From: Bacteroidota bacterium | GTDB lineage: Bacteria > Bacteroidota > Bacteroidia > Chitinophagales > LD1 | Assembly (NCBI GenBank): GCA_018267385.1 | Contig: JAFDYN010000015.1 | Location: forward strand, 1-64,000 | DNA length: 64,000 nucleotides | Direction: 5' to 3' | Part shown: positions 1 to 1,466 of the stretch, one piece after another | Layout of the letters: each line of letters begins with the position of its first letter | How positions within the stretch are numbered: position 1 is the first letter of the stretch | Made by a program: the position numbers and the translations under genes | Notes under the pieces: model-generated | The model's input: the letters and a program-made list of their open reading frames with translations, nothing else | The model's database searches: none | What the model was told of the DNA's origin: nothing

Positions 1-192
1 GTTTAGCTGCCTCAGTTTCTCCTCCTGCGCCTTCCAGGTTTCCAGGGGGTAGATCACGAGACAGTCATCCAGGTCTCTGGCGATCATAAACCTCCCCTTG
101 TCACCTTCGGCAAACTGACGGCTAAACGACACGGGCATTTTGACACGCCCCTTGTCGTCTACACTGCAGTTTATTTCGCCTAAAAAGCGCAT
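1..192 (-). CDS. mraZ: MraZ, transcriptional regulator of the division/cell-wall cluster (5' part only)
   Basis: The first 64 codons of a leftward gene that runs out of the window. The translation begins MRFLGEINCSVDDKGRVKMP and contains the MraZ/AbrB-like core with the DxKGRVxMP motif (about residues 12-20), followed by FMIARDLDDCLVIYP. MraZ is a ring-forming DNA-binding protein that usually sits first in the dcw cluster (mraZ-mraW-ftsL-ftsI-mur genes) and controls its own promoter by binding short GTGG/TGGG repeats spaced 10 bp apart. Such repeats lie 39 bp upstream of this start (231-260), which supports both the call and the start. The rest of the dcw cluster is expected to the left, outside the window. 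Confidence 0.93.
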   Translation of the reverse strand, partial: MRFLGEINCSVDDKGRVKMPVSFSRQFAEGDKGRFMIARDLDDCLVIYPLETWKAQEEKLRQLN

Positions 193-218: not shown

Positions 219-292
219 CAAAATTATGAGTATTTCCCACTACTCACCACTTCTTACCACAAAACTATACAAATTCTTTTCAACACATCAAA
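219..292 (-). promoter_or_regulatory. Predicted mraZ promoter(s), Bacteroidota type
   Basis: On the minus strand TTTG (292-289) is followed after 21 nt by TAGTTTTG (267-260), an exact match to the Bacteroidota -33/-7 consensus TTTG...TAnnTTTG. A second perfect -7 box, TAATTTTG, lies at 226-219, closer to mraZ, without a clear -33 box. The GTGG repeats lie between the two boxes, so MraZ bound there could block either start site. Confidence 0.6.
231..260 (-). promoter_or_regulatory. MraZ box upstream of mraZ: three GTGG repeats at exact 10-bp spacing
   Basis: On the minus strand the sequence reads GTGGTAAGAA, GTGGTGAGTA, GTGGGAAATA, three decamers in a row, each starting with GTGG (the CCAC tetramers on the plus strand end at 240, 250 and 260). 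MraZ operators in other bacteria are three or four TGG-containing repeats one helical turn apart, so this is very probably the autoregulatory operator. It sits at or just downstream of one predicted -7 box (260-267) and upstream of another (219-226). Confidence 0.8.
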
Positions 293-330
293 AAATCTCA
301 GATAACTGAGTAAAATCAACGGTTTCAGAG

Positions 331-356
331 GTGGTAAAAAGTGGTAGATATAGTGG
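331..356 (+). promoter_or_regulatory. Second, oppositely oriented GTGG repeat set
   Basis: GTGGTAAAAA (331) and GTGGTAGATA (341) are consecutive decamers, followed by a third GTGG at 353 (spacing 12). They match the MraZ-box repeats at 231-260 but read on the plus strand, about 70 bp away, so the two sets face away from each other. This may be a second MraZ site or part of a DnaA-box cluster, because the last repeat overlaps AGTGGATAA at 352-360. Confidence 0.5.
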
Positions 357-418
357 ATAAACGATTTGCTGTGGATTATTGTTGCTTTCTCCATATGGTT
401 TTTAACAGTTTATCCACA
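352..418. promoter_or_regulatory. Cluster of DnaA-box-like 9-mers
   Basis: TTATCCACA at 410-418 is a perfect match to the classical DnaA box. TGTGGATTA (370-378) and AGTGGATAA (352-360) are each one mismatch from the same box on the opposite strand. Three such sites within 67 bp, next to an AT-rich stretch (200-310) in a non-coding region, could mark DnaA control of mraZ or its neighbour, or a replication origin. Sequence alone does not separate these. Confidence 0.45.
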
Positions 419-587: not shown

Positions 588-1466
588 ATGAGAAAGGTAT
601 ACAAGCATAGCAGCGTGCCAGTGATCCTGCTGCTCTCCCTCACAGCTATGGCAGGGGGTCCCAAGCGCGGCTATTGGCAAAAGCCTCCTCCGGGCGTGAT
701 ACGTATCTCGGAGAACTACTACTACGACCAGACAGAAGTGGCCAATGTACACTGGCGCGAATACCTCTACTGGACCAGGAAGGTATTTAGTGAAGGTTCA
801 GCAGAGTACCAGGCCGCACTACCCGATCAGTCGGTTTGGTCAGAGGCTGATAGCTGTCTGAGCGTATACGCGGACCTTTATCTGGGCCATCCTGCGTATG
901 AATACTTTCCCTTGCTCGGCCTCACCAAGAAACAGGCAGAGGCCTTTGCAAAGTGGCGCTCGGACAGAGTCATGGAGCGGGAGCTAGTCCTACACCATGT
1001 GATAGAAGAAGATACCTCACAAAATAGGAATAAGTATTTCACCATCGAAAAATACTTTACCGGGCAGTATAAGGGTATAAAACCCGATACGGCATTCATG
1101 TATTACCCCTTTTATCGTTTGCCTACCGTGGCCGAGTGGCGCGAAGCGGCGCGTCTGGATTCTCTCACGTACAAGTCGGCCAGCTCTGGTGGGCAGGTCT
1201 TTGATATAAACCCTTGCACCAGAGCTGATAAAAAAACTCCTCCCACACGTGCAGTCGAGTACATAGAGAATGCAAAAAGCCCAGATGACCTCTACGGCAA
1301 TGTACGGGAGTGAGTAGCGGAAAACAATATGGCAGCCGGAGGTAGCTGGAAGGATAGCGGTAGGACTATCTTGCAGCAGCCAGTAGTGGAGACCAATGGT
1401 GTTAATGCGTGGACCGGATTCCGCTGCGTATGTGAGTGGAGGCGATGGGATGCCGCCCGCTATTGA
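588..1466 (+). pseudogene. Secreted formylglycine-enzyme-like (SUMF1/FGE-sulfatase) protein interrupted by in-frame TGA
   Basis: The frame starts MRKVYKHSSVPVILLLSLTA, a signal peptide, and continues in the FGE-sulfatase/GldJ-GldK style: YYYDQTEVANVHWREYL (about 45-61), a PFYRLPTVAEWREAARL motif (about 177-193), then DLYGNVRE. There a TGA (1311-1313) replaces the tryptophan of the family motif GNVxEW. Reading on in the same frame gives VAENNMAAGGSWKDSGRT and the family ending WTGFRCVCEW before TGA at 1464-1466. Everything but one codon is intact, so this is a recent nonsense change (TGG to TGA), a sequencing error or a recoded stop. ATG 588 is preferred over 567 and 579 because it starts the signal peptide and a -7-like box, TACTTTTA, lies at 572-579. 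If terminated at 1313 the product would be 241 residues without its C-terminal fold. Confidence 0.75.

Follow-up and report, generated by a model that had tools for sequence, protein, structure and literature searches.

The window, i.e. the whole 64,000-nucleotide stretch of Bacteroidota DNA analysed, carries two GTGG arrays upstream of mraZ: a three-unit array overlapping the likely mraZ promoter and, on the far side of that promoter, a two-unit array in inverted orientation that is conserved at near-constant distance across family f1. We propose that the distal array is an auxiliary MraZ operator. Together with the operator at the promoter it would serve autorepression of the dcw operon, probably through a bridge or loop between the two, and we hold this reading to be moderately likely. 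It is the best explanation of the sites themselves, their conservation and constant spacing, their match to a shared weight matrix and the absence of any conserved divergent gene or promoter, and it would entail binding, repression and bridging by MraZ, with a possible input from DnaA. The features concerned are:

1-192, minus strand: first 64 codons of mraZ (match to Pfam MraZ, PF02381); the gene is truncated by the contig start
219-226, minus strand: possible second -7 box, TAATTTTG
237-260, minus strand: predicted proximal MraZ operator, three GTGG units
260-267, minus strand: putative Bacteroidota -7 box, TAGTTTTG
289-291, minus strand: putative -33 TTG of the mraZ promoter
331-344, plus strand: predicted distal MraZ operator, inverted and with two units, GTGGTAAAAAGTGG; the extended match covers 329-348
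352-360, minus strand: DnaA-box-like site, TTATCCACT
370-378, minus strand: DnaA-box-like site, TAATCCACA
387-395, plus strand: degenerate, facing DnaA-like box, TTCTCCATA
410-418, plus strand: perfect DnaA box, TTATCCACA
588-1313, plus strand: FGE-sulfatase-like gene (PF03781), outside the system

The minus-strand array agrees with what the sequence-only reading had taken it for, the expected MraZ operator. Its three GTGG cores (257-260, 247-250 and 237-240) lie at exact 10-bp spacing, and it overlaps the probable -7 box and start site of mraZ. The unit agrees with the known MraZ site, (AAAGTGKN3)3, in which GTG is directly repeated at 10-bp steps (PMC5282649), and 237-260 has the layout of at least three GTG[G/T] units at 10 bp overlapping a promoter, the promoter being placed by consensus only. 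No other perfect three-unit array in the 4.5-Mb assembly has MraZ-like flanks; a single further exact match, at C19, looks like chance. The putative -7 box shares its final base with the first GTGG of the operator, and the -33 TTG, which is based on the consensus only, lies 21 bp from that box. The arrangement TTG-N21-TANNTTTG was present at the mraZ promoter position in five g1 genomes, the window included. The possible second -7 box lies downstream of the proximal operator, and a related box is visible in many relatives. The remainder of mraZ forms the end of contig C10 (G000:C10:117846-118127), and in relatives an rsmH-like methyltransferase ORF follows mraZ, as expected for the dcw operon.

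On the plus strand, a second GTGG set had been read at 331-356. Its first two units, at 331 and 341, form a 10-bp pair and stand, but the GTGG at 353 was rejected as a third array unit. It lies 12 bp past 341 and is off register, it is part of the DnaA-box-like TTATCCACT, and three of the six relatives in the genus (L006, L007 and L008) lack it; the distal array therefore consists of two units, not three. GTGG-N6-GTGG occurs four times in the 64 kb (1.6 expected), and three of the four lie inside one 110-bp region holding both arrays.

We scanned the window on either strand with a weight matrix of 20 columns, trained only on the proximal arrays of family members from other genera. The site 329-348 on the plus strand ranked first (20.3 bits), followed by two overlapping proximal pairs (20.1 and 17.3 bits); the next unrelated site reached 13.9 bits. 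By this independently trained matrix, 331-344 has the same unit and spacing as the proximal operators, with two units in place of three, and it appears to be a target of the same protein as the proximal array. In approximately 400 kb of G001, which belongs to the same genus, 8 of 799,042 positions scored 12 bits or more, with a maximum of 20.1. Since unrelated sites can score this high, the matrix score alone is no proof, and the argument is carried by conservation. Elsewhere in the window's own genome, GTGG-N6-GTGG-N6-GTGG with one mismatch occurred in control-level numbers only, and so we claim no wider MraZ regulon.

The f1 sample comprised 30 genomes from four genera, and the matching public records are metagenome assemblies. 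An inverted distal pair with at most one mismatch was found in 28 of the 30, and the motif TACCACTTTTTACCAC occurs once per genome in all seven genomes of the genus, always upstream of mraZ, demonstrating that the linkage of 331-344 to mraZ is conserved. Exact inverted pairs were present in a fraction of 0.90 of the f1 upstream regions compared with 0.01 of shuffled ones (27 observed vs 0.9). The GTGG columns are near-invariant in both arrays throughout f1, and the DNA from the distal array to the promoter is largely weakly conserved. The sequence-only reading had named as its refutation that the plus-strand repeats would be unconserved where 231-260 is conserved; on making this comparison, we found 331-344 conserved, bar two losses in one genus. 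The genomes concerned, G021 and G023 (both g4), keep the proximal array and lack the distal one, which the third g4 member, G022, has. This indicates that the distal array is dispensable.

The gap between the arrays was 69-74 bp in 27 of the 28 f1 genomes with both, a constant spacing as for a looping auxiliary operator, from which constraint on the promoter between the arrays is incompletely separated and which could partly reflect that constraint. In the one exception, L075, the gap becomes 72 bp if the proximal array is read one unit further in. The near-constant gap and the shared conservation are compatible with one assembly holding both arrays. In G008 (locus L077) an unusual core change appears in parallel, the proximal array reading GTGG, GCGG, GCGG and the distal one GTGG, GCGG; this single genome fits one protein reading both arrays. 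Against this argument counts L058, where a GCG-type change is found in the proximal array only.

In the proposed mechanism, MraZ, the autoregulator encoded by the first dcw gene, would bind the three 10-bp-phased boxes overlapping the mraZ -7 region and also the two inverted boxes ~70 bp further upstream, on the opposite side of the promoter. That the spacing is fixed suggests cooperation between two MraZ complexes. Either a single ring or a stack of two might connect the sites and so repress the promoter, which would be caught in a short loop, about 90 bp long between the centres of the sites. MraZ forms rings. Solved MraZ structures are 1n0e, 9qlr, 9qlg and 9sx6. Because the ring is polar, a simple wrap around one ring would call for two arrays pointing the same way, and the inverted arrays do not fit it. 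On geometry only, they favour a pair of rings facing each other, or else a loop that returns with its ends crossed. The loop idea is reasonable but unproved. DnaA at the adjoining boxes could compete with the MraZ clamp or modulate it.

The main rival to bridging is a distal pair that is bound by MraZ and acts without any bridge, a second ring raising the local concentration, blocking upstream activator contacts or excluding DnaA. The position of the pair (329-348) next to the DnaA-like boxes at 352-418 would suit such a role, as does the precedent of the E. coli mioC promoter, whose DnaA box overlaps with a site bound by MraZ (PMC4446571). Family f9 also speaks for it, the second pair occurring there in either orientation and at varied distance. 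Of the 14 f9 genomes that could be used, about 9 carry a remote second GTGG pair, which is in the same orientation in five genomes and inverted in five, L154 having one of each kind; most of these pairs lie about 200-315 bp upstream of mraZ. In f1, however, the gap of 69-74 bp is near-constant and the orientation strictly inverted across genera, suggesting that the geometry between the arrays matters, and we give a non-bridging role a modest chance. The eight genomes of other families yielded one remote second GTGG pair. Taken with the f9 counts, this shows that a remote second MraZ-like array is recurrent and that its fixed inverted form is characteristic of f1. The f9 count excludes L100 and L150, in which the called mraZ start evidently lies too far downstream. 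Their GTGG arrays are 60-150 bp farther upstream from that start than those of relatives, which suggests either such misplaced starts or a longer leader.

The distal array is flanked by mraZ on one side and on the other by a divergent gene, whose strand it shares. The plus-strand set had been suggested to control this rightward gene at 588. As an independent operator of a divergent promoter it should be accompanied by a conserved divergent gene and an outward promoter. The gene next upstream comes from many different, unrelated families, and its orientation varies among the genomes that keep the distal array; in many of them, e.g. L055, L061, L068, L069, L072-L074, L076 and L084, it is co-directional with mraZ. 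An outward TAnnTTTG box, pointing away from mraZ, was found in none of the 30 f1 genomes within 270 bp upstream (6.2 expected); a TAnnTTTG box towards mraZ was found in 21 of the 30. Since the neighbour changes both identity and orientation, and no outward box occurs in 30 genomes, we conclude that the distal array is not an operator of the gene at 588, and we rejected a divergent-gene operator as highly improbable. The gene at 588 has an in-frame TGA at 1311-1313, within the frame 588-1466, where relatives have a Trp codon (GNVREW). The frame is intact beyond this codon, which is either a nonsense change or a sequencing error.

Inverted arrays might also form an RNA or DNA hairpin, i.e. an attenuator or a cruciform, and the window 14-mers GTGGTAAAAAGTGG and GTGGTAAGAAGTGG indeed share 13 of 14 positions when aligned in inverted orientation. 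However, the spacers between the GTGG cores match at 4.0 of 6 positions within a genome and at 3.8 of 6 between genomes, indicating that pairing is not maintained, and no compensatory spacer changes were seen across the genomes. The distal arm, moreover, lies upstream of the likely promoter. With spacers no more alike within than between genomes and no match in an Rfam search, the hairpin was rejected, and we consider it hardly credible.

Immediately upstream of the distal array, at 352-418, lies a cluster of DnaA-box-like sites that the sequence-only reading had overlooked. Sites with at most one mismatch to TTATCCACA number twelve in the 64 kb, and three of them fall within 352-418. Both the box-like site at 370-378 and the perfect box at 410-418 show no change across the seven genomes of the genus. 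The degenerate box at 387-395 reads TTCTCCACA in several relatives, forming an inverted pair with 370-378. Because the DnaA and MraZ motifs both contain GTGG, DnaA might read part of the distal array. In the related family f12, each mraZ upstream region of the 34 genomes sampled contains at least one TTWTNCACA (mean 2.2 vs 0.09 expected). Most of these genomes (e.g. L155-L174 and L098-L113) carry a run of inverted DnaA-box-like repeats (such as TTATTCACAGnTTATCCACAGn) that recur every 10-11 bp, at about 150-200 bp upstream of mraZ, and a TGTGGAWAA box is found about 100 bp upstream. The distal MraZ-like array is absent from f12 at its f1 position, and this family has DnaA-like boxes in its stead.

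By its DnaA-box cluster, the mraZ upstream region could pass for the chromosomal replication origin, with the distal GTGG pair as a part of it. Perfect and near boxes are clustered at 352-418 and conserved, DnaA-like boxes lie upstream of mraZ in 34 of 34 f12 genomes, and in Bacteroidetes oriC is commonly far from dnaA (PMC4755523). A GC-skew minimum at mraZ was nevertheless not seen in either of two single-contig f12 genomes. In G162 the skew changes sign at 160-280 kb (origin) and at 1.56-1.76 Mb, with mraZ at 882 kb; in G130 it does so at 0.89-1.05 Mb (origin) and at about 2.9-3.2 Mb, with mraZ at 545 kb. In G001, of the window's genus, the skew along C7 was weak, with no clear flip at mraZ, and another DnaA-box-like cluster exists at G000:C4:11205-11440. 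We rejected an origin at mraZ on the GC skew of the two complete f12 genomes and regard it as very unlikely. As mraZ lies away from the origin in these two genomes, DnaA is here probably a regulator, or is titrated.

The C4 cluster (locus L195, about 1700-1940; e.g. CTGTGGATAGTAGTGGATAACTGTGA and ATGTGGATAGCTAGTTATCC) is intergenic and flanked by glycine-cleavage-H-like and phosphatidylserine-decarboxylase-like ORFs, named from their translations. Alignment with L201 showed it to be partly conserved there, and it is a candidate for the true oriC of the genus. The dnaA gene lies at G000:C10:51118-51603, about 67 kb from the remainder of mraZ on C10; in G001 the two genes are about 75 kb apart on C7, and in several f12 genomes their linkage is lost.

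DnaA is a transcription regulator of division genes at the B. subtilis ftsL promoter and for C. crescentus ftsZ, and according to a 2021 review no major impact of DnaA on the timing of cytokinesis has been shown in any species (PMC8203912). For the mraZ promoter, we tentatively raise the possibility of a combined replication-division switch, in which DnaA on the phased boxes would oppose the MraZ clamp and the replication cycle would set dcw expression. The DnaA-like boxes beside the distal operator offer a concrete place to test DnaA timing of division gene expression, and the conserved inverted second operator at fixed spacing provides a natural test of MraZ bridging DNA.

Operators with a remote auxiliary site include lac O1-O3 and gal OE-OI. 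As in these systems, the region studied here has two predicted sites for one oligomeric repressor, ~90 bp apart at near-constant spacing. The lac and gal repressors, however, are helix-turn-helix proteins reading palindromes, whereas MraZ has an AbrB fold, is ring-shaped and reads tandem boxes, and the present arrangement is predicted from sequence. The ftsL, ftsZ and mioC systems resemble it in having DnaA boxes at a division-gene promoter or MraZ and DnaA sites side by side; in contrast to them, the putative DnaA boxes here are at the mraZ promoter itself, beside an extra MraZ operator, and recur across Chitinophagales families. In the MraZ literature, searched largely outside subscription journals, we found no inverted second array. 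The closest known system is the autoregulatory MraZ operator of E. coli, Mycoplasma gallisepticum and M. genitalium, which likewise has GTG[G/T] direct repeats every 10 bp at the mraZ promoter (PMC5282649, PMC8475190). The accessible parts of these sources describe one direct-repeat array, whereas here the family has conserved an additional array of two units, inverted and 69-74 bp further upstream. We rate this predicted second array as a variant form of the known autoregulatory MraZ operator.
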